Positions 4,702-47,173 of a DNA stretch of 64,000 nt are shown one piece after another (the first letter of the stretch is position 1; each line of letters begins with the position of its first letter). The stretch covers positions 558,001 to 622,000 of the forward strand of contig JALHOP010000001.1 in the NCBI GenBank assembly GCA_022842935.1, read 5' to 3'. The position numbers and the translations under genes were made by a program. The stretch comes from Myxococcota bacterium. GTDB lineage: Bacteria > Myxococcota > XYA12-FULL-58-9 > JALHOP01. The notes below the pieces were generated by a model that worked only from the letters and a program-made list of their open reading frames with translations, did no database searches and was not told the origin of the DNA.

Positions 4702-4800
4702 GCGCGCACGCCTTCATGGAAGGCTTGCGCGTGTGCCGATGCCGGGTTGCCCGACCGGCTCGACTACTACGTGCTGACGCGTGTGCGTCGCACTGCGGCT

Positions 4801-6165
4801 TCAGGAAGCATATAACACCTCCGAAGCGTTGTGTCTTACCCGGGTGAGACGCGGCACGATCCCGGCGACGCACCCGAGGCAGAACGCGCACAGACCAAGA
4901 AGCGCCGGCGAAAGCGCGGCAGCGAGGTGTCGTTCTGTGGCCGGCGCAAGCGTCGGGGCTTGTGACCACGGAACGTCGTGAGCCTGCGTTCCCGATGTGA
5001 TGCTCGGCAACATCCAATCCGCGAAGGCGGTTCGTAGCGCCTCCGTGCGGTCGCTGAACTCGAGAAATCGCCCGGTGTCTGTGCCCGCCAACACGTCGAG
5101 CGCTTCCCGTACGATCGTGCTCGGAGAAGCGAAGCGCAACAGCCCTGCAACCTCGTAGCGGACGCGGCGTCTCCTAGCGTGTTCTGCCTCGATCGGCGCC
5201 GTACGGCGCATCGTCTCGCGCTGCACGAGCGTGAAGCGCTCCGCGAAAGAGGTCTTGCTCTCATGGGAGCGAATGAGGTCCGGGTGGTCGCCGTAGTACT
5301 TGGCGAGCAGGCGTTCGCCGTCGATGTTGCGGACGTCGTCGCCACGGAGCGCATCGAGGAGATCGAAGCGCGACGGTAGGGGAGCCAAGCGCGTCACCGC
5401 GACGCTTGCGATACTCGGGACCAACACCGTGCATGCGACCCACGCGAAGATGAGCGTCGTCGCTGTGGTAGCACCCGAATGAACCCATACGTTGACGAGC
5501 GCGGCGAGCAGGCACCAGAAGGTGACCGTAGCGCCAACGAGGATCGTGTACGCGAGAAGGTGAGGGATGCCTGGGTAGACCGCTTCGATCTCCATGGTCA
5601 CGAGCGGAACGATGACCGTCACGGCGGCAACCGCGACGCCTCGTGTCGTCAGCTTGGCGGCGAGCACGCCAGCCAGGGACACAGGGTGCGCGAGGAGCAT
5701 CGCGAGCGTACCGGCATCGCGCTCCTCGCCAAGGAGGTCGCTGGTAAGCGCGATCACGAAGAGCGGCAACACGAAGACGATGACGAAGGCGAGGTCGAAG
5801 CGGCCGCTCGCTAGAGCAAGCGGGCTTTCGAGCTCGTAACGGTCGGACCTCTGGCGTGCCTTCGTGAGGATGCTGACTGTGTCTGTCGAAGGATAGATAT
5901 CCGATTGGCCAATCGAGAAGCTCGCCGATGCGAGCAGTGGGAGGGTGACCAGCGCGCCAGCCCGACCCCTCTCGTAGGTGGATTTCGCCTGGGCCGTCGC
6001 TCGCTCGTTTTCAGCTTTAGCGGTCGCGATCGTCGAGGCACGGACGCGTGTCCAGGCGACCCCACTCGAGGTTCCATAGGCCAAGAATACGGCGAGCACG
6101 GCGATCAGCGCCCAAAAGTAGGGCGAGCGAGCAAGCCTTCGTGTCTCATGCGCAAAGATCGTCAT
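4801..6165 (-). CDS. ABC-2 type permease, DUF3526/NosY-like (second permease of operon)
   Basis: The product has about 454 residues from ATG 6165 (MTIFAHETRRLARSPYFW). This ATG overlaps the upstream permease stop as ATGA, so translation is coupled. The profile is one N-terminal membrane segment, a large extracytoplasmic loop of about 150 residues, a cluster of hydrophobic segments (FVIVFVLPLFVIALTSDLL, then the conserved GEERDAGTLAMLLAHPVS), a second long polar loop and a final membrane helix. The EERDAGTLxxLLxxP motif is typical of ABC-2/NosY permeases. With the second permease and the ATPase it should form a heterodimeric ABC transporter. The substrate is unknown, but the candidate Zur box upstream of the operon points to a metal-related cargo. 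Confidence 0.88.
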   Translation of the reverse strand: MTIFAHETRRLARSPYFWALIAVLAVFLAYGTSSGVAWTRVRASTIATAKAENERATAQAKSTYERGRAGALVTLPLLASASFSIGQSDIYPSTDTVSILTKARQRSDRYELESPLALASGRFDLAFVIVFVLPLFVIALTSDLLGEERDAGTLAMLLAHPVSLAGVLAAKLTTRGVAVAAVTVIVPLVTMEIEAVYPGIPHLLAYTILVGATVTFWCLLAALVNVWVHSGATTATTLIFAWVACTVLVPSIASVAVTRLAPLPSRFDLLDALRGDDVRNIDGERLLAKYYGDHPDLIRSHESKTSFAERFTLVQRETMRRTAPIEAEHARRRRVRYEVAGLLRFASPSTIVREALDVLAGTDTGRFLEFSDRTEALRTAFADWMLPSITSGTQAHDVPWSQAPTLAPATERHLAAALSPALLGLCAFCLGCVAGIVPRLTRVRHNASEVLYAS

Positions 6166-7565
6166 AGTGGACTCACGCGGCGCACGGCCAGCACAGCGAA
6201 CGCAGAAGCGGCGGCGAGCCAGGCTGCGAGACCCAGGACGAGCGGCACTGCGGTTTCGATCGTGTCCGACAACGGGACAACGCCCGGCTGGAAGCGGGCG
6301 AGCGACCGCCATAGCTCGGAGCCCGCGCGCACGCCCGATTGTCCGGGCGTCGATCTCTGCGTGAGGTAGCCGTTCAGGAGTCGTTGTGTCTGGCGGCGAT
6401 ATTCTTCGGCCGAAAGTACGAAGGCGCGGTGCTGCGCGATGTCAGTGCCCGCGAGTGCCATGGAGATGGCGCGAACGCCCATGATCGGTGCAGCGATCAT
6501 GGAGAGGCGAAGCCACCGCGACTGCGCATCATAGGTGTCGAAGAGGGCGCCGTAGTGAGCGTCGAACACCTCGTTGGCGTGCTCCTCACCGTCTTGAAGC
6601 GCGATGCCGTCGAAGTTCACGGGAAGATCGTCGAGGCGGCGAACGTCGTACTGAGCGAGTACCTTCTGTTCCAGAGCCTTGGTGCGGGTACTGTTACCGT
6701 GGGCGTCCCCCAGCTCGGCGTCGACACTGGCCCAGAAGCTTGCAGCGCTTGGCGGTGGGTGCAGACGGTCGGCGAGGTCAGCGGCGACCTTGGGGACGAG
6801 GAACGTCGTGGTCACCCAGATCGCCAGACCTCCGACGAGCGCGCTACGGGTGTTACGAGAGACGGCGGACACCGCGAGGGTCACCGCCAAGACGGTCCCG
6901 TAGTAGAGGGTGTAGGTGACCGCGAGGACGCCTAGTCGCGCTCCCGTGTCGGCCCGGTCGGTGCTACCAAGTAGGATCGCGACGGCCGCGATAGCAGCCA
7001 GCGGCGCGAGTACCATGCACGAGCATCCCGCGATACCGAGGGCTTTTCCCAGCAGCAGAACGCGACGCGGCAGGTTGGCCGCGAGCAGCGACCGCAGGGT
7101 GCCTCGGTCCCGCTCCGAGGCGAAAGCCGTATAGCCAAGCAAAATAAGGAAGAGCGGAACCACTTGCTGGAGCACGAGCGTTAGGCTGAGCTCGCCGAAG
7201 CGGGCGAGGGATGGAGCGTCCTCGATGGGCCGATACTTCATTGGGTTCTGACTGTGCGCTTCGAGCCACACCGAGCGACCCAGGTAGGGGATGAGGCCAG
7301 GGTCGACGAACGCGAGGATGTCGTAGGCTGCGTTCACGTAGAGTCCGAAGTGCGCCGCCGTGTGCGGGTTGCGTTCGCCTTGCGACTCCCATTGAAGGCG
7401 ACTGCGTTCCTCCGCTTCGCGCAACTCGCGCGCGAAGGCCGCTTGCTTGTCGACGCCGATGATGAGCGCCGCCACGGCCAGCACGACGACGGCTCCGCCG
7501 ATGACCCGCACTCTCCCATCGCGCATGAGCTCGCGAGCTTCCTTCCAGGCGACAGCCGCGATCAT
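6162..7565 (-). CDS. ABC-2 type permease, DUF3526/NosY-like (first permease of operon)
   Basis: The product has 467 residues from ATG 7565, overlapping the ATPase stop as ATGA. The N-terminal helix (RVIGGAVVVLAVAALIIGVD) follows a charged MIAAVAWKEARELMRDG start typical of ABC-2 permeases. A large external loop comes next, then the multi-helix core starting with LTLVLQQVVPLFLILLGY and the family motif SERDRGTLRSLLAANLPR. It is clearly paralogous to the downstream permease in architecture. Both keep long extracytoplasmic loops, a layout seen in DUF3526 transporters that often accompany TonB-dependent metal or siderophore receptors. No receptor gene is present nearby. Confidence 0.88.
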   Translation of the reverse strand: MIAAVAWKEARELMRDGRVRVIGGAVVVLAVAALIIGVDKQAAFARELREAEERSRLQWESQGERNPHTAAHFGLYVNAAYDILAFVDPGLIPYLGRSVWLEAHSQNPMKYRPIEDAPSLARFGELSLTLVLQQVVPLFLILLGYTAFASERDRGTLRSLLAANLPRRVLLLGKALGIAGCSCMVLAPLAAIAAVAILLGSTDRADTGARLGVLAVTYTLYYGTVLAVTLAVSAVSRNTRSALVGGLAIWVTTTFLVPKVAADLADRLHPPPSAASFWASVDAELGDAHGNSTRTKALEQKVLAQYDVRRLDDLPVNFDGIALQDGEEHANEVFDAHYGALFDTYDAQSRWLRLSMIAAPIMGVRAISMALAGTDIAQHRAFVLSAEEYRRQTQRLLNGYLTQRSTPGQSGVRAGSELWRSLARFQPGVVPLSDTIETAVPLVLGLAAWLAAASAFAVLAVRRVSPL

Positions 7566-8272
7566 GCTGCTGCCCCCATGGTCGTCAGGTAAATGCGGTC
7601 TAGGTCCTGATGCTCGATGTCTTGCGTCGCGAGCTCACGCACGAGCTTTCCCTCACGCATGATCCCAACGCGGTGGCCGGTCTCCTTGGCGCGGAAGATG
7701 TCGTGGGTCGCCATGAGCACAGCCATGCCGCTCTCGCCGAGCTCACGAATGAGTCGTGACAGCTCATTGGCGGCCAGCGGGTCGAGCCCGGACAGGGGCT
7801 CATCGAGGATCAGGACCCTGGCCTTGCGCGCGAGGGCGACCGCGACGCCCACCTTCTGACGCATGCCCTTCGAGTAGCTGCTCGCGCGCTGATCGGCCGC
7901 AGCCGCAGACAGGCCGACCCGCTTGAGGGAAGCCGCGAGGCTTCGTCGGTCGGTCGCTCCAGTGCGGGAGAGCTTCGCGAAGAACTCGAGATTTTCGAGG
8001 CCCGACAGATGCCGGTAGAGCATCACCGTCTCGGGCACGTAAGCGATATGTCGGCGAGCCTCGGCCGGAGCATGCGTTACGTCGACGCCACAAACGCGGG
8101 CAGTCCCCGAGGTTGGCGCGGAGAAGCCGAGCAGGAGATTGATGGTTGTCGTCTTACCCGCGCCGTTCGCCCCGAGCAGACAGAAGATCTCTCCTGCGTC
8201 GATCTTGAGCGTCAGCGCGTCGAGGGCGCGACGCTCTCCGTACGACTTCGTAAGTCCCAACGCTTCGATCAC
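7562..8272 (-). CDS. ABC transporter ATP-binding protein of the ABC-2 operon
   Basis: The protein has about 236 residues with Walker A GANGAGKTT, signature YSKGMRQK (a variant of LSGGQ common in ABC-2 exporters), Walker B VLILDEP and a switch His in ATHD. I choose GTG 8272 as the start because a GGAGG box sits seven bases upstream. The TTG two codons earlier directly abuts that box. It is the first gene of a three-gene operon whose members overlap by four bases each. A TGCATCA-G-TGATGCA palindrome lies 34 bp upstream, so expression is probably zinc/Zur-controlled. Confidence 0.93.
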   Translation of the reverse strand: MIEALGLTKSYGERRALDALTLKIDAGEIFCLLGANGAGKTTTINLLLGFSAPTSGTARVCGVDVTHAPAEARRHIAYVPETVMLYRHLSGLENLEFFAKLSRTGATDRRSLAASLKRVGLSAAAADQRASSYSKGMRQKVGVAVALARKARVLILDEPLSGLDPLAANELSRLIRELGESGMAVLMATHDIFRAKETGHRVGIMREGKLVRELATQDIEHQDLDRIYLTTMGAAA

Positions 8273-8305
8273 AGACAACCCTCCTTGGGAGGTGCCTATA
8301 GATCT

Positions 8306-8326
8306 TAATGCATCAGTGATGCAATA
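8306..8326. promoter_or_regulatory. Candidate Zur-box palindrome upstream of the ABC operon
   Basis: A 15-bp perfect dyad TGCATCA-G-TGATGCA (8309-8323) extends to 21 bp with only one mismatched pair. It lies between the MerC-like stop and the ABC ATPase start. The same motif, with one change each, occurs at 10068-10088 and 18989-19003, both before metal-homeostasis genes. The nearest Fur-family regulator is at 8897. The assignment to Zur is inferred from context. Confidence 0.72.
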
Positions 8327-8338
8327 GCGGTTTGACCC

Positions 8339-8785
8339 TCAGGCGCGCGCGGCGCTAAGCCGACGGGCGCGCCGTAGACGCACTTGTTCGAGTAGCGCCG
8401 AAGCGAAGATCAGTCCGACGCCTGTCCACTCGGCGGCGTGCAGATCGCCAGAGAGATGAGCAAGAGCGACGAGGGCGGCGCCCGAAAGCGTGAGCGCGAG
8501 AGGCAGAGTGCGTTTGGTCTGCCGGGCTCGCCAAAGCGCTGTTGCGACCGAGCCCACGACCGCGACCGCGAGGAGTAGGTCGTGTCCCTCGGAGCCGAGC
8601 ACGACCCCGAAGCCAAGCAGAGAAAGAATCTTGGCGTACGTGGACAAGCAAAGAGGGCAAAGCGCGCAAGCGAGCATAGGCACGACACCAGCGACGATGC
8701 CGCTCCTGTCTATCTTGGTTGCTGGGCGCACTGTACTTTGTGCATCGCAGTTGCAATTGCCTGCGTGATGACGATGAATCAGCAT
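8339..8785 (-). CDS. MerC-like small membrane protein with His/Cys N-terminus
   Basis: I choose ATG 8785, giving 148 residues beginning MLIHRHHAGNCNCDAQ, a short His/Cys cluster that could bind metal. The body has four predicted membrane helices: a PMLACALCPLCLSTYAKIL helix carrying paired Cys, then GHDLLLAVAVVGSVATALW, TLPLALTLSGAALVALAHL and AEWTGVGLIFASALLEQV. The overall size, four helices and Cys-containing first helix match MerC-domain proteins, which in other proteobacteria sit with zur and COG0523 genes. It is divergent from the Fur-family gene across 111 bp. It might import or sense a thiophilic metal; mercury itself is not indicated, since no merA, merP or merR gene is present. Confidence 0.72.
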   Translation of the reverse strand: MLIHRHHAGNCNCDAQSTVRPATKIDRSGIVAGVVPMLACALCPLCLSTYAKILSLLGFGVVLGSEGHDLLLAVAVVGSVATALWRARQTKRTLPLALTLSGAALVALAHLSGDLHAAEWTGVGLIFASALLEQVRLRRARRLSAARA

Positions 8786-8896
8786 TGCGACGGTCCTAGA
8801 ATAAGGTCGTCGGTATTGCAATGTTTTAGGGTGGCTCGGCCGCCGCGGGTGGGGAGGGCTAGGCAGCGGCGGTCTGTTGGCGTAGTAGGAAGGCCA

Positions 8897-9331
8897 ATGG
8901 GTCGTCCAGCCAATCAAGATGCCCTGCGCACGCGCATCCGCGAGAATGGCCTACGTGTCACTGGCCCTCGGGTGGCGGTCTTGGGGAAGCTTGCGGCCGC
9001 GCAAGAGCCCATCACCCACGGCGACCTCGCCGACGACCTCGCGCGGGCGGGCCTAGATCGCGCAACGGTGTTCAGGAACCTTCGTGACCTTAGCGAAGCC
9101 GGACTCGTCGACCGGGTTGATCTGGGGGACCGGGTCTGGCGCTATCAGCTCCGCGACCTCGCCCGCGCCTCCCACGTCCATCCCCACTTCGTGTGTACGG
9201 ACTGTGGTACGATCGAGTGCCTCGAGGGCGTGGATATCAAGGTTCAGAAGCGGCAGCGGGTACCGAGGGCCGTTCGCGACGACCATGTCACGATTCACGT
9301 GAAGGGGCGCTGCGACGACTGCGCGGGCTAG
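8897..9331 (+). CDS. zur: Fur-family metalloregulator, probably Zur
   Basis: The ATG at 8897 is preceded by GGAAGG and gives a 144-residue protein. The winged-helix N-domain contains ITHGDLADDLARAGLDRATVFRNLRDLSEAGLV. The dimer domain contains SHVHPHFVCTDCGTIECL (a CxxC and His ligands) and ends in GRCDDC (the second structural CxxC). These features define the Fur superfamily. I call it Zur rather than Fur or PerR because its neighbours are DUF1826, COG0523 GTPases and a NiCoT/HupE-like permease, a set repeatedly tied to zinc limitation. The call is context-based: Fur-family specificity cannot be read from the sequence alone. The feoB end at 63833 is far away and argues little. Confidence 0.83.
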   Translation: MGRPANQDALRTRIRENGLRVTGPRVAVLGKLAAAQEPITHGDLADDLARAGLDRATVFRNLRDLSEAGLVDRVDLGDRVWRYQLRDLARASHVHPHFVCTDCGTIECLEGVDIKVQKRQRVPRAVRDDHVTIHVKGRCDDCAG

Positions 9332-37890: not shown

Positions 37891-38430
37891 ATGCGGCCCA
37901 AGCACCTGCTCCTCGTCGCCTACGTCTTGGCATTGAGCCGCCCGGCGCAGGCCACCGTGCTCTGGGATTTGTCGCTTGAGGAGCGTATCGCCCGCGCTGA
38001 CGCGGTGTTCGCGGGGACCGTCAAGGAGGTCAAGGCTGTCGAAGCACCGGATGGCATGATCTTCACTGAAGCCACTCTCGACGTCCAGCGCACGATCTAT
38101 GGCCCGCCCCAGTCGACGGTCACCGTCACACAGTTCGGCGGCACCATCGGCGAGCGCTCGGTGATTGTCGCCGGTACCGTTCCGATGGCCGTCGGTGAGT
38201 CGCTCATCGTCATTGTTCGTCGTGACCGGCTTGGGCGGCTGCAACTCGTGAGCATGGGGCTCGGTGCGTTCCGTGTAAGCGGTCGCGAGGCACGCCAGCA
38301 CATCGACGTGCCGTTGATGCGTCGAGACGGGCGTATGGTCGAGTCGCCCGTCGAGGCGCGTCTCGACATCGATCGTATCGAGGCGGTGGCCCGCGACGTT
38401 AGCCGGACGCTCGAGCGAGTCCCGCGGTGA
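37891..38430 (+). CDS. Exported protein paired with a matrixin-like protease
   Basis: ATG 37891 gives 179 residues with a signal peptide ending near RPAQA. The mature part is mostly beta (ADAVFAGTVKEVKAVEAPDGMIFTEATLDVQRTIYGPP; VTVTQFGGTIGERSVIVAGTVPMAVGESLIVIVRRD), resembling the small beta-barrel domains in secreted myxobacterial proteins. It overlaps the protease gene as GTGA, so the two are made together. A role as inhibitor, chaperone or partner of the protease is possible but unproven. I do not recognise a family name with certainty. Confidence 0.72.
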   Translation: MRPKHLLLVAYVLALSRPAQATVLWDLSLEERIARADAVFAGTVKEVKAVEAPDGMIFTEATLDVQRTIYGPPQSTVTVTQFGGTIGERSVIVAGTVPMAVGESLIVIVRRDRLGRLQLVSMGLGAFRVSGREARQHIDVPLMRRDGRMVESPVEARLDIDRIEAVARDVSRTLERVPR

Positions 38431-39830
38431 GCGGCGCCTGGCTTTTTCTCGCGCCCCTCTTGTGCGGCTTCACCGTCGACCGCAAACCTGGGTCGTCGCC
38501 GCCAGCGCCGATCGTGTGGCCCACCACCAACTTGAGCTTTCGGATCGACCGCGGCGGGGTCAGCACAGTGACCGACGACTCCGATCTCGCGGCGGTCTAC
38601 CAGGCCTTCGCGGCATGGAACGCGGTCAGCTGCTCTCCGTTCACCTTCAGCGATGCCGGCGCGACCAACGGCCCGCCGGGCTTCGACGATATCAACAGCA
38701 TCAACTTCATAGGCGACGAAGGCCAATGGAACTGGCCGGATGGCGCTTTAGGTTACGCCGCCCGCGAGCAAGTCGGCGGCGTATGGACTGAGGTCGATGT
38801 TCTCATCGATGATTTTACCTACGCGTGGTCAACAACCGGGGCGTTGCGGTCGCCGGATCTGCAGGGTGTCCTCACGCACGAGCTGGGGCACGCGCTCGGT
38901 CTTTATCACAGCGCGATACCAGCGGCGACGATGTACTATGTCGTGTCGCGCGGCCGCACCAACAACCGCACCCTGAGCGCCGATGATATTGCCGGTCTCT
39001 GTTACCTCTATCCGGCTGCTTCGGTTCCTTGCGAGACCAACGCTGACTGCCCTGCCTTCAGCCCGTTTTATGGAGCGAACGCCACCACTGTCTGTTCCGG
39101 CGGATCGTGCGTGGTTGGCCAGCGGCCCTACGGCGAAGACTGCTACGCTGATGCCCAGTGCCTTGGGGGGATGTGCCGACGCTTCAAGGGCGCGCCCTCG
39201 TACGACCCTGGTGTCTGCACGCAGGCGTGCCCCTGCCCGGGCGGCGATGTCTGCGCGAGCGGGATCTGTGCGCCGCGTTTCGCGGATTGCGCGGATAGCT
39301 GCGGCAGCACCGCACCGCCAGCGAATGACACGTGCGGTACCGACGTCGACGGCAACCACGTATGCCTCCAGGCGTGTGTTCAGCCTTCGAACTGCCAGCC
39401 CGACGAGATCTGTTTCGAGCCGGTGAGCGCTGACGACGCTGGCCTTTGCAGGCGCCCTGGTCCCGGCGCTATCGGGACGCCCTGCGCAAATCCAAGCGAC
39501 TGTGTGACCCTGCTTTGCGGTGTGGACCTCGACGGCGTCGCGCGCTGCGCGGACCCCGGTGACCCGCCGGAGCCACCCCCGGACACGGGCGGCCAACCCG
39601 ATGGCGGGGCGCCAGATGGCGGTGCCGCCGATGGCGGTGATGCGGCCGGCGCTGATGGTGGCGACTCGTTCGGTGCTGACCCAGCCACGGATGACGAATC
39701 TAGGGGCCCAATGGGGACGGTCGATGGCGGCTGCGCCGCGTCGACACCGAGCTTTGCCCTAGTGATGGGGGCGATTGTGGTCGCACTTTTCGTTGTCCGA
39801 AGAGCCCCAGTGGCCCGTAAGATCTGCTAG
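38427..39830 (+). CDS. Matrixin-like (M10-type) zinc metalloprotease with MYXO-CTERM-like tail
   Basis: The protein has 467 residues from GTG 38427. The zinc site HELGHALGLYH is at residues 151-161 (HExxHxxGxxH), followed by a Met-turn (ATMYY). A Cys-rich region (about residues 200-375) with repeated C-x-x-x-x-C spacings resembles Myxococcus Cys-rich modules. A Pro/Gly/Asp linker leads to a C-terminal GGCAASTPSF, a hydrophobic helix and VVRRAPVARK. The tail is nearly the same as that of the PA14 protein at 30587, implying a common sorting enzyme. The N-terminus MSGAWLFLAPLLCGF is a short signal peptide. It is probably surface-anchored and degrades extracellular protein. Confidence 0.86.
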   Translation: MSGAWLFLAPLLCGFTVDRKPGSSPPAPIVWPTTNLSFRIDRGGVSTVTDDSDLAAVYQAFAAWNAVSCSPFTFSDAGATNGPPGFDDINSINFIGDEGQWNWPDGALGYAAREQVGGVWTEVDVLIDDFTYAWSTTGALRSPDLQGVLTHELGHALGLYHSAIPAATMYYVVSRGRTNNRTLSADDIAGLCYLYPAASVPCETNADCPAFSPFYGANATTVCSGGSCVVGQRPYGEDCYADAQCLGGMCRRFKGAPSYDPGVCTQACPCPGGDVCASGICAPRFADCADSCGSTAPPANDTCGTDVDGNHVCLQACVQPSNCQPDEICFEPVSADDAGLCRRPGPGAIGTPCANPSDCVTLLCGVDLDGVARCADPGDPPEPPPDTGGQPDGGAPDGGAADGGDAAGADGGDSFGADPATDDESRGPMGTVDGGCAASTPSFALVMGAIVVALFVVRRAPVARKIC

Positions 39831-42422: not shown

Positions 42423-45400
42423 GTGAAGGCCTTCGCGAGCTTCCGAGAGCGCGCCCTCCACGAGAGCCTGCGCTACGGCGATGACCCTTACGTGTTTTTG
42501 CGCGAGCTCGTGCAAAACGCGCGGGACGCTGGCGCACGCATCGTGCGAGTCGACGTGGCTGTTGAGTCAGGTCGCGCACGGGTCAGCTTCGAGGATGACG
42601 GCAGCGGGATGACCTTCAAGCACGCGAAGGGCTATCTCTTCCGCCTTTACGCGAGCAGCAAAGAGAATGAGACCGACGCGGCTGGACACTTCGGTGTTGG
42701 CTTCTGGTCAGTGCTGCGGTGGTCGCCAGAGAGCCTACGCATCGAGTCGCGTACAGGCCTCGCCGAAAGCGCGACCGAGTCCTGGGGCGTCGAGCTGGAC
42801 GCGACCCTATCGAAGGTCACCGACGTCCGGTGCTCCTTGGCGTCTTGTGGGACGCGCATCGTCATGGAGCGTGTCATCCACGACGACGAACTCACGACAC
42901 TCGCACAAACGGTGCGCGAGCGCCTTGCCTACTATTGTCGGTACGTGCGGGTGCGCGGCGGCAAGGAGCGCCTCCAGCTCGTCTGCAATGGCGAACGTGT
43001 CGACCGCGAGCTCGACGTTGCCTCCGTCATGGAAGGCAGCGGCAGTCAGGCCACGCTGGCCATGAGCTTCTCGAGCGCCGGGGCATCCGGAATCGTCGCG
43101 CTGGCCGCATCGCCAAAGGTGCAGCTTTACGCCCGTGGCTTACTCGTGAGCGAAGCGACCGTCCTCGATGAGCTCGACGGCGCGACCAGCGGGCGTCGTG
43201 ACGGCTACGGTACAAGTGGACTCGCGCCGGTGGTCGTACTCAACTCCGATCGGCTCGACGTCGTCTTGTCGCGTCGTAAGGCGCGCGACGGTCGTGAGCT
43301 CCGCCGCCTCATGCGACTGGCGCGGGCGCGGCTCGATCGCCTCGTCAGCCACGCGGTCGACGGCGTGGTCGAGCGGAGCTTCCTCGACAAGACCAGCGAT
43401 GCAATGGCGAGCGGTGTGCGCGCGCTGGGGGGAGGGCTTGCGGTCGCGGTACTGGCGGTTTGGCTACTCGTCATCGCGGCTGGCGCGTTGGCCGCGCTGC
43501 TGTTGTGGCGCGGACCGCGAGAAGCGGCGGGCGAGCGGACCGTTATCACGGTTGTCCGCGGGTCGACCGTAGCAACGACCGAGAGCTACCGCGACGAGCC
43601 CCCACCTGTGGTTGGGTCTGGCGATGTCGCGGCGCTTACGGGCGGGGCGCGTCCAATCGGCAACATCGTCGGCTATGGCGGAGCGATCGTCGATGTGCCC
43701 GACAGCTACGGGCCGACATGGAGCTTTGGCTACCGCGGCCCGTCGCGTGTGTTCTTCAAGGCCCTTACGCTCGACCGCTATGAAGCAACGCACGGATTCG
43801 TGCGGCGCGAGCTACCCGTCACCGGAGACTATCGCGGTGTCGCTTGCGGTCGCGGCGTCCGCGCCTGTGTCGACGTTGTCACTCAAGTCGTCGCGAACGA
43901 CACCCCCTTCGTGCTACCGGTGCCGACCGGCTATGCGGTCGTGGACCAGAGCGTCACTGTCGACGGTACGCCCCAAGAGCTTGCTACGAACGCGGTCGGC
44001 GAAGCTCTGTTGCTACTCGAGTCCGGACGTCGCGGCACGTTGCGTTACCAGGTTGCGCCTGCGACCGCTCCCGCGGAAACCCCACCCCTCCCAGCGCCTC
44101 TGTCCTTTGGGGAGCCTTGGGATGGAATGCTCGCGCGTGCCGTTAGGCTCCCACTACAGCGACGTGTCGAGATGGTCACGAGCTTCGTTCGTGACACCGT
44201 CCGCTATGACGTCACCCCGGTGACCGCGTCGATGTTCGCACATGCGCATGGTGACTGGCACAGCCGCGTGATCGCCGTGGGCGCCGGAGACTGTGACGTC
44301 AAGAACGGCTTGAATGCCCTCCTCCTACGTCAGCTCGGCGTCGACGCGCGTCTGGCAATAGGCATTGCTGGCGAAGATGGCGCGGCGCGGCCAAGTCTGC
44401 ACGCGTGGACCGAATACTTCGCTGGCGGCCGCTGGCACGTCATCGATGCTACGGGGCAGCCCGCTGCCTTCGACCCGGTCGCGGAGCGAGCCAAGGAGCT
44501 CGAGATGCGCCGAGCGACGGGCGACCCCGCCGTGCTCGCGGTTGGTGTGCCCAGCGCCGCCGAAGCGCCTGCGCGACGTCGCTCCGATGCTCGGCGCGAG
44601 CGCCGAACGGTCGCTACGCCCGACCCGTCGACCCGTGCCGAGCCGCCGCAGACGATGCCGGTCGCCGAGACCATCCGCGCGCCGCAGCCGAGCCTCGGCA
44701 TGCCGTCGACCCCCTCCGTCACACCGGCCCCTGGAGTCGTACCGCACGCAGCTGCCTTTGCGCCGCGCCATCGGTGGCTCGTGCGCCTCGACGCCGTTGT
44801 CGACCGCGTCTATGCATGGTCGCGGATGGTGCCTCCGCGCGTCTATTGGTTGGCCGTCGCTGGGTTGGCGCTTGCCGCGAGTGTCGTGCTCGTCGCGCGC
44901 CGGCGCGTGCGCGAGCGCCTGGTCAACGATGGGCCGCAAGACGCCCGCCGCGAAGCGCTCGCCAAGATGGTCCACGATATGTTGACTCAGCCTCACGCCT
45001 GGCGCGGCGTGGGAAGGGCTTGGCACCAGCGCTTGCTGCCAGTCCTTTCTGGGCGACCCATGAGTCTCGAGGAAGCGTTGCGACGTGCCCGCGATAACGT
45101 CTTGTTCGTATCGCGTTCGCGTTCCCGGTTGGCCAATGCCGCTGCGCGTTGCGGGACACCGGTGCTCGACGCGGCGGATCCGTTTTTCGGTAGGGTCGTT
45201 GTTCCTCTATTACGGACAGTAGACCTCGATAGCATCGAGCCGTTGCTCGATACCCGCGACACGCCGACGTCGTCGCTCCGCGGTTTGAGCCGCGCCAATG
45301 CGGTGCTCGCCGATGCCCAGGCCGACGTCTGCTTCGTGCTGGCGGAGGCGCTCCAAGACACCCCGCTGCGTGACGTCGACCTGACCCGCGCGCGTCTCCC

Positions 45401-45620
45401 CAAGAGTGTGCGGGCGCCACGTCGCTTCATCGCTGTGTCGCCTAGCCACCGCGAGGTGCGGGCACGCCTCGAGAAGCTCGAGCGCGACCCTGAGCGTGGT
45501 GTATTCATCTGGCTCGACTGGTCGGTCGAGCGGAGCGAGCTCCTCGCGGATCACACGGCCCGCGTGCGTGAATGCGCCGCCATGTATGCAGTCGATGTGC
45601 TGGGTTCGGGTGAGCGATGA
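42423..45620 (+). CDS. Hsp90-type ATPase fused across the membrane to a transglutaminase domain
   Basis: The protein has 1065 residues from GTG 42423. Residues 1-330 match Hsp90/HtpG: ELVQNARDA (E28, N32), DDGSGM (D58), LYASSK, GHFGVGFWSV (88-97) and CGTRIVME. A middle-domain-like part follows, with LYARGLLVSE and VVLNSDRLDVVLSRRK. All ATP-site residues are kept. A membrane helix is at about 337-360. The external segment contains a transglutaminase/papain-like domain with GDCDVKNGLNALLL (C624), LHAWTEY (H660) and VIDAT (D675), an intact Cys-His-Asp triad. A Pro-rich linker and a second helix (about 806-828) precede a 235-residue cytoplasmic tail of unknown fold. Predicted topology is ATPase inside, transglutaminase outside, tail inside. 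I know of no named family with this order. Confidence 0.85.
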   Translation: MKAFASFRERALHESLRYGDDPYVFLRELVQNARDAGARIVRVDVAVESGRARVSFEDDGSGMTFKHAKGYLFRLYASSKENETDAAGHFGVGFWSVLRWSPESLRIESRTGLAESATESWGVELDATLSKVTDVRCSLASCGTRIVMERVIHDDELTTLAQTVRERLAYYCRYVRVRGGKERLQLVCNGERVDRELDVASVMEGSGSQATLAMSFSSAGASGIVALAASPKVQLYARGLLVSEATVLDELDGATSGRRDGYGTSGLAPVVVLNSDRLDVVLSRRKARDGRELRRLMRLARARLDRLVSHAVDGVVERSFLDKTSDAMASGVRALGGGLAVAVLAVWLLVIAAGALAALLLWRGPREAAGERTVITVVRGSTVATTESYRDEPPPVVGSGDVAALTGGARPIGNIVGYGGAIVDVPDSYGPTWSFGYRGPSRVFFKALTLDRYEATHGFVRRELPVTGDYRGVACGRGVRACVDVVTQVVANDTPFVLPVPTGYAVVDQSVTVDGTPQELATNAVGEALLLLESGRRGTLRYQVAPATAPAETPPLPAPLSFGEPWDGMLARAVRLPLQRRVEMVTSFVRDTVRYDVTPVTASMFAHAHGDWHSRVIAVGAGDCDVKNGLNALLLRQLGVDARLAIGIAGEDGAARPSLHAWTEYFAGGRWHVIDATGQPAAFDPVAERAKELEMRRATGDPAVLAVGVPSAAEAPARRRSDARRERRTVATPDPSTRAEPPQTMPVAETIRAPQPSLGMPSTPSVTPAPGVVPHAAAFAPRHRWLVRLDAVVDRVYAWSRMVPPRVYWLAVAGLALAASVVLVARRRVRERLVNDGPQDARREALAKMVHDMLTQPHAWRGVGRAWHQRLLPVLSGRPMSLEEALRRARDNVLFVSRSRSRLANAAARCGTPVLDAADPFFGRVVVPLLRTVDLDSIEPLLDTRDTPTSSLRGLSRANAVLADAQADVCFVLAEALQDTPLRDVDLTRARLPKSVRAPRRFIAVSPSHREVRARLEKLERDPERGVFIWLDWSVERSELLADHTARVRECAAMYAVDVLGSGER

Positions 45621-47173
45621 CGACGCGCGATGCTCGCGAGCTCCTTTCGATCGATGTCACCGCCGAGGTCAGGAAGCTCGGCACGCAGCAGCTCGCCACC
45701 CCCGTCGACATCGTCGCTGCGGCGGCTCGCATGACCATCGAGTGTGGCGCGCACGCCGTTGACGTCATGACGATGCGCTCCGGCACCAAGATCACGGCGC
45801 GAGGCGCCCGCATGCCGGTCGACGTCCAGGCTCAGCTTGCTTGCATCCTTGACGTCGAGCGCAGCAGCGACGTTCGCCATGCCGCTCTCGTTGCTTGGGA
45901 GAATGACCACCGCCTCGAGTGGCTCGCCGTGGTGTGTGCTGGCGACGTGGAGCTACGCGCGCAATCCGAGGAGGGCACCGACGTGATCGACGTGCGCGAC
46001 GCAGCCGGCCGTCATCGACGTACCAACGACACCGGCGAGCCGCACATGACCGTCTTTCTGCGCCGCGTTCGTACTGGGGGCGAACTCGAGCAGCTCACTC
46101 GTGTGTTCGCCTTCGCGAGGTTGCCGGTGACGGTCGACGGTCATCGTGTGAGCTTCGGTCTCGAGCTGCCGGAGGCTCTCATCGCGGTGCCGATCGCCGG
46201 TGCCAACTTCAACGGCGCCGTCGGCCTACCGCGGGAGCCGAGCGTCGCGCGAACGACTCTCGTACGTTCCGAGGTGGTCGACCGCGACGTGGTCACGAGC
46301 GCCGCGCGCGGCCGCGTGCACGTCGCCGTCGTGAGCGCGCGCGCGCGATTGCCGGATACGAGTGTGATCGAGCGTACCGTCATCGCGGCACGCGACCAGC
46401 TCTACGACGAGCTCAAGGCGCGCTACGCAAAGCTCACCGGTGATGAGCGCGCTGCCGCGGCGGAGCTGCTCTTTCGCAGCTGCGAAGAGCGCGGCGATAC
46501 GAGCTTTCTCGACGATGCACGCATCATCGCGACGACGCGCGGCGACTTCGTGACACTGGCGACGTTGCGCGGCATGGCACGCGACGGAGTCTTGCTGGCC
46601 GCGGAGCCCGACCAGGTTGTCGACGCCGACCTACGAGACATTAGCTTACCCATCTTGAGCGCTCGCGAGCGTGCCTTCATCACGCGTTTCGTGGGCCTGC
46701 GCTGTGTGACGCCCACGTACCGTAGCGCCGATGCGCCCTGGCGCCGCTTACGTCGCTGGCTGCGCGAAAGGCTGTACTCCGCGGGCAAGAACTTCGCGCG
46801 GCGCGGGCTAGGCTTGGGCGAGGGAACGATGCTCGATGACGAGGAGCTTCAAGCCGACGAGCGTGTTTTCATGAGGGCGCTCGCCGAGCTCGTCGGCGGT
46901 GGTCGTTTCCGCGTGCCGGGCACCTCACTCGGCGAGCGTGTACAAATCGTGCCGACGTCCCGTGGTCGTCTGCCTGTCGCCCTGCGTCGTCGTCGTGACC
47001 ACTGCTTCGTCGCGGTGCCTCTCCGCAGTCAGCGTGGTGCGCGCCTCGTCCGCATGGTGGCTCGGGACCCCACCACCTTGATCATCGCCACCACCCTGGT
47101 GTTCGGCGGTCAGGATGGCTATGGCCGCGAGCGCGGCAGAGCACGGGCGGCCCTCGTCAAGAACACACCGTGA
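45617..47173 (+). CDS. Degenerate Hsp90/sacsin-like partner protein
   Basis: The protein has 518 residues and overlaps the previous gene as ATGA. There is no signal or membrane helix. The order of its first 200 residues mirrors the N-domain of its neighbour: DIVAAAARMTIECGAHAVDV in place of the N-box helix, then strands, then TVFLRRVRTGGELEQLTRVFAFARLPVTVDGHRVSF in place of RIVMERVIHDDEL..VRVRGG. The ATP-binding Glu/Asn, DxGxG and GxFGxGF are missing. A later part (LFRSCEERGDTSFLDDARIIATTRGDFVTLATL) resembles sacsin-type Hsp90 regions. It is probably a non-catalytic subunit that pairs with the ATPase. The resemblance is pattern-level and should be tested by structure prediction. Confidence 0.65.
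   Translation: MTTRDARELLSIDVTAEVRKLGTQQLATPVDIVAAAARMTIECGAHAVDVMTMRSGTKITARGARMPVDVQAQLACILDVERSSDVRHAALVAWENDHRLEWLAVVCAGDVELRAQSEEGTDVIDVRDAAGRHRRTNDTGEPHMTVFLRRVRTGGELEQLTRVFAFARLPVTVDGHRVSFGLELPEALIAVPIAGANFNGAVGLPREPSVARTTLVRSEVVDRDVVTSAARGRVHVAVVSARARLPDTSVIERTVIAARDQLYDELKARYAKLTGDERAAAAELLFRSCEERGDTSFLDDARIIATTRGDFVTLATLRGMARDGVLLAAEPDQVVDADLRDISLPILSARERAFITRFVGLRCVTPTYRSADAPWRRLRRWLRERLYSAGKNFARRGLGLGEGTMLDDEELQADERVFMRALAELVGGGRFRVPGTSLGERVQIVPTSRGRLPVALRRRRDHCFVAVPLRSQRGARLVRMVARDPTTLIIATTLVFGGQDGYGRERGRARAALVKNTP

Follow-up and report, generated by a model that had tools for sequence, protein, structure and literature searches.

The window analysed here, a stretch of 64,000 nucleotides from the genome of a Myxococcota bacterium, contains two overlapping genes, which we refer to as gene A and gene B; all positions given for them are on the forward (+) strand of the window. 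Gene A (42423..45620) encodes a protein of 1065 amino acids (aa) that reads, from its N-terminus, as an Hsp90-like N-M region, a first membrane segment (TM1), a predicted extracytoplasmic transglutaminase-type domain, a second membrane segment (TM2) and an Hsp90-like C-half. Gene B (45617..47173) encodes 518 aa with the N-M-C layout of a putative pseudo-Hsp90. An earlier analysis of the DNA without database searches (the sequence-only reading) had proposed these two open reading frames (ORFs) with an ATGA overlap, and we confirmed both at these coordinates, the stop of A and the start of B sharing 4 nt at 45617-45620. Pfam searches assigned HATPase_c_3 (PF13589; aa 26-112, 3.5e-10) and Transglut_core (PF01841; aa 580-676, 1.8e-9) to A, and no match was obtained for B in Pfam, PADLOC or NCBIfam.

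The GHKL/Hsp90 N-domain of A (aa 1-180; 42423..42962), which also matches HtpG, had been said to keep every landmark of the Hsp90 ATP site. This held across the family: E28 (42504-42506), N32 (42516-42518), D58 (42594-42596), G60, G62 and G88/G91/G93 were invariant in 60/60 A homologs, as were D35, S78 and K80, and T144 of the GT motif was a threonine in 54/58. Here and below, counts include only the homologs that span the position (60 for the ATP site, 57 for R284 and 53 for the catalytic triad). The proposed Hsp90-like middle region also proved real. When aa 1-330 of A were compared by hhalign with the HtpG of other Myxococcota, they aligned with a probability of 98.9 (E 2.1e-17). Within the middle domain (aa ~185-315; 42975..43367), R284 (43272-43274), which lies in 'LDVVLSRRKARDGRELRRL', was aligned onto 'LPLNVSRELLQDSQVVRAI' of HtpG, the catalytic-Arg 'SRE' loop, and is conserved in 57/57 homologs. 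The AF2 model of A is of moderate quality (mean pLDDT 67.7) and matched the fold of TRAP1 in Foldseek (1.1e-14). The HSP90 family profile PF00183 matched nothing in the window's genome (97% complete), A and B included, and many other Myxococcota are likewise without an HSP90-family match. A suggested likeness to sacsin stood for the GHKL domain only, where the sacsin-like ATPase model NF047352 scored 50.5 bits against a cut-off of 50; the SACS model scored under its cut-off, and the N-M region is nearer to HtpG/TRAP1. Judged from these alignments, aa 1-330 of A is an Hsp90-type N-M region with the middle-domain catalytic Arg, and ATPase activity is predicted for it.

As had been proposed, two predicted membrane crossings flank the enzyme domain at conserved positions. 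TM1 (aa 343-361; 43449..43505) has a hydropathy of 2.8 and TM2 (aa 807-825; 44841..44897) one of 2.29; the AF2 model shows long helices at 336-362 and 805-830, and nearly all complete A homologs have hydrophobic segments at about 330-360 and 670-830. This topology is thus predicted from hydropathy together with a model of moderate confidence. Between the two segments lies the transglutaminase core (44160..44450), for which PF01841 was matched in 11/11 cases. A comparison of the external region with Pseudomonas aeruginosa TgpA (6g49) gave a match for this core only (2e-5). Homology to TgpA over the whole external region was considered but is not supported, the upstream part scoring -1.1 bits. 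The triad described by the sequence-only reading, C624 (44292-44294), H660 (44400-44402) and D675 (44445-44447), was intact in 53/53 homologs. Together with the ATP-site residues invariant in 60/60, this indicates that selection acts on the two active sites within one protein.

The cytoplasmic tail that had been noted at the end of A is present (aa 835-1065; 44925..45617), but it is not a generic tail, as hhalign shows its homology to B in the C-half of the latter (E 1e-6, prob 91). The N-M region of A in turn matched the N-half of B (E 6.6e-15, prob 98.4). No hhalign match to B was obtained for the external insert (E 0.11). As homology to B is seen before and after the insert, A is best taken as an Hsp90-like N-M-C protein that carries a TM-enzyme-TM unit between M and C. 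Independent support for this reading comes from Myxococcota GHKL proteins of ~520 aa, which align to the profile of A over 22-237 and 735-930, with the transglutaminase part missing in between. By profile, the A tail compared with the HtpG C-domain at a probability of only 5, and dimerisation through the C-domain is thus suggested by the homology to B and by the fold match of B. On these sequence comparisons, A and B are best explained as diverged paralogs of a single Hsp90-like protein.

B had been described as a second, degenerate Hsp90 fold, and the structural model agrees with this. Its AF2 model has a mean pLDDT of 83.7 and its top Foldseek match was full-length Hsc82 (6.6e-15). Over 653 columns the TM score was ~0.45 and the rmsd 20 A, which means that the domains of B match those of Hsc82 but are arranged differently. 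Loss of the ATP residues from the degenerate GHKL domain (aa 28-173; 45698..46135) was borne out in part. The Mg-binding Asn is gone everywhere (0/49 B homologs), but other residues persist in some lineages: the N-box Glu is kept in 33/49 and the G1 Asp in 25/49, and 13 B homologs retain Glu, Asp and glycines. In the window's own B, Asn, Glu and Asp are all lost, with A35 (45719-45721) and M39 (45731-45733) standing at the positions of E28 and N32 of A. The middle-domain Arg loop showed no conservation across B homologs. Judged from its residues, B is a pseudo-ATPase whose decay is graded across lineages and far advanced in that of the window.

When a 58-genome sample of the phylum was searched, full-length relatives of A were found in 11 further genomes, some of them split over contigs, and a profile search for full-length B found it in 13/195 genomes of the phylum, the window's genome counted. 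When GTDB species genomes were scanned with a profile, 59 loci with A were obtained (L087-L145), all from metagenome-assembled genomes (MAGs) to judge from the titles, and some of their contigs are identical to those of the 58-genome sample. A single-sequence query (P0001) had no matches on the GTDB contigs, for which the profile (A3) was required. By the same titles, the MAGs belong to Myxococcota/Deltaproteobacteria, Candidatus Aminicenantes, other Acidobacteria (Holophagae, Vicinamibacteria), Fermentibacteria and Eisenbacteria, with one Chrysiogenales MAG. The sequence-only reading had turned on whether the two genes occur together in other genomes. Of the 49 loci that leave room for B, 48 have it immediately after A. 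In ten of the 11 loci without B, A lies at or near a contig end; the other, L098 of Aminicenantes, is the sole locus with room (1.6 kb) and no adjacent B, and the frames there show none. The frames at 3561-5157 of L098 resemble a small toxin-antitoxin pair. A start codon from which B would overlap A by 4 or 8 nt was present in 43/47 intact pairs, a count that leaves out L142, where A is broken into two frames. The distance matrices of A and B were correlated with r=0.96 over 45 pairs, and none of 2000 permutations exceeded 0.19. This shows co-inheritance of A and B, which may merely follow species history.

We also searched the surroundings of the pair across loci. No universal third gene was found, and none of the neighbours names a substrate; those that recur are limited to lineages and differ between phyla. 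In Aminicenantes-type loci an MBL-fold hydrolase is encoded upstream of the pair and DUF3014 is encoded downstream of it. At 38427-39830 the window encodes a metalloprotease of the matrixin type (M10), whose C-terminal part is Cys-rich and Gly/Asp-rich, and it is conserved near A in genomes of the same order. In one family, a gene of 510-640 aa with no Pfam match adjoins A at its start or overlaps it there (L034 3472-5010, L036 5000-6544 and L038 6534-8459). We also considered that A-B replaces HtpG, which is encoded in 3/13 pair-bearing genomes compared to about 81/182 others. This difference is confounded by phylogeny and the claim was therefore dropped.

Hsp90 is an ATP-clamped dimer with a large motion at the hinge between M and C. 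In A, which appears to retain the ATPase, the TM hairpin with the transglutaminase-type cysteine enzyme is placed at this M-C hinge, and B retains the fold but has lost its ATP chemistry. Most likely, the translationally coupled A and B form an asymmetric Hsp90-like heterodimer at the inner face of the membrane. As A binds and hydrolyses ATP, the dimer would open and close and, with the TM hairpin at the hinge, ATP-driven closure would shift the two membrane helices relative to each other. This shift may in turn gate or drive the external enzyme, a putative cysteine amidotransferase or peptidase that would transfer or hydrolyse amides in proteins or peptides of the envelope. The sequence-only reading, which had suggested a chaperone-driven switch over an external protein-crosslinking or peptidase-like activity, is supported in part. 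We infer the heterodimer, its orientation, the coupling and the substrate, and give this reading as a whole a probability of roughly 0.55. That the pair is an asymmetric membrane-embedded Hsp90, with one active and one pseudo-subunit, in which cytoplasmic ATP controls an enzyme on the far side, we regard as about an even bet. We know of no described system with a naturally heterodimeric Hsp90 or with an ATP-powered extracytoplasmic cysteine enzyme.

The likeness of the external core of A to TgpA (6g49, 2e-5) would also suit an envelope chaperone or assembly machine, a possible if rather doubtful alternative in which membrane proteins are the clients. The Hsp90 pair would fold or insert them, and the main role of the transglutaminase-type domain would be to bind or process the client as it emerges. 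A-B would then parallel the MoxR-DUF58-TgpA operon, with a chaperone as its basis. The window's genome encodes a TgpA_N protein (PF11992) on another contig (C15), preceded by overlapping ORFs with the sizes and order of MoxR and DUF58. At 4736-8939 of this locus (L161) the overlapping ORFs are of 353, 360 and 688 aa, the last with TgpA_N, and the trio fits MoxR-DUF58-TgpA by size and order, the first two assignments being putative. With such a candidate set in the same genome, A-B would be a second, parallel unit. An SLT lytic transglycosylase directly upstream of A in three genomes of the window's order is also in line with an envelope machine. However, MoxR and DUF58 were absent among the conserved neighbours of A-B, these neighbours vary by phylum, and no significant match to TgpA was obtained in the half of the external region that lies upstream.

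In A, a GHKL ATPase and an external domain are parts of one protein and are joined through two TM helices, as in sensor kinases. Such a layout would suit signalling from outside to inside, in which the external domain senses peptides or damage to the envelope and, in response, the Hsp90 cycle changes along with its clients in the cytoplasm. We consider this improbable, as the triad complete in 53/53 homologs goes beyond the needs of a sensor that only binds, and no regulator gene is consistently adjacent. Transglutaminase-like and Hsp90-like domains are both known, separately, from predicted conflict systems (PMC3710099; PMC8195603), and PADLOC models for TmtA match the GHKL domain of A. The TmtA match covers about 90 of 1486 positions in a generic domain, however, with no match over the whole protein. 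No match to A-B was found on plasmids, and viral contigs gave matches to the GHKL segment only. The surroundings of the pair are of a housekeeping kind in L120 and L136, with a dxr-type cluster upstream and an L9-type gene downstream (names read from the sequences), and synteny around the pair is shared in 12 Aminicenantes-type loci. An anti-phage or conflict system is thus highly improbable, and judged from this context a defence role of A-B is unlikely.

There is no ATP in the extracytoplasmic space. The asymmetric membrane Hsp90 that we favour, if real, would therefore represent a novel means of powering or gating chemistry in the envelope, its chaperone cycle being linked to an enzyme across the membrane. 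As one of its subunits would be naturally dead, the pair would also offer a test of the old question of cooperation between the two Hsp90 ATP sites. The uneven loss in B across phyla, in which Asn is always gone and other ATP residues persist in some lineages, records the evolution of a pseudo-ATPase.

Compared to known systems, A and B share with Hsp90 (HtpG/TRAP1) the overall fold and, in A, the ATP site of the N-domain and the catalytic Arg of the middle domain. They differ in that PF00183 matches neither, A is predicted to be membrane-embedded with an enzyme inserted between M and C, and the Hsp90 homodimer would be replaced by two unequal subunits. The periplasmic part of TgpA (PA2873) has transglutaminase activity in vitro, and TM helices hold the TgpA core outside the inner membrane (PMC3507681). 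A shares such a TM-anchored core, predicted to lie outside the inner membrane, but has two TM helices and lacks the DUF3488/TgpA_N multi-TM region; PF11992 matches only the other protein, on C15. In contrast to the MoxR-DUF58-TgpA operon, the ATPase of A is of Hsp90 type and in the same chain, not a separate MoxR. Sacsin and the bacterial sacsin-like ATPases share the N-terminal ATP-binding domain, but no DnaJ or HEPN domain was found in A with Pfam, and its N-M region fits HtpG/TRAP1 better. The ~520-aa GHKL proteins of Myxococcota are followed, in the adjacent gene, by a giant partner of about 1,230-2,340 aa (L047 4218-5894, L048, L049 6607-12848, L079, L080 3195-10303, L082 and L084-L086). 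Their ATPase matches both ends of A and the partner, which has almost no Pfam matches, matches B repeatedly, but the TM-transglutaminase insert is missing. The Hsp90-like GHKL protein and its partner form a second two-gene unit in Myxococcota, apparently undescribed. For A-B itself, the suggestion of an undescribed system agrees with our searches, in which no account of the fusion or the pair was found in family libraries or in literature lying mostly outside subscription papers and preprints. Within the literature and families searched, the domains are thus known but the architecture and the pairing of A with B are new, and there is a considerable probability that the entire system is of a categorically new kind.
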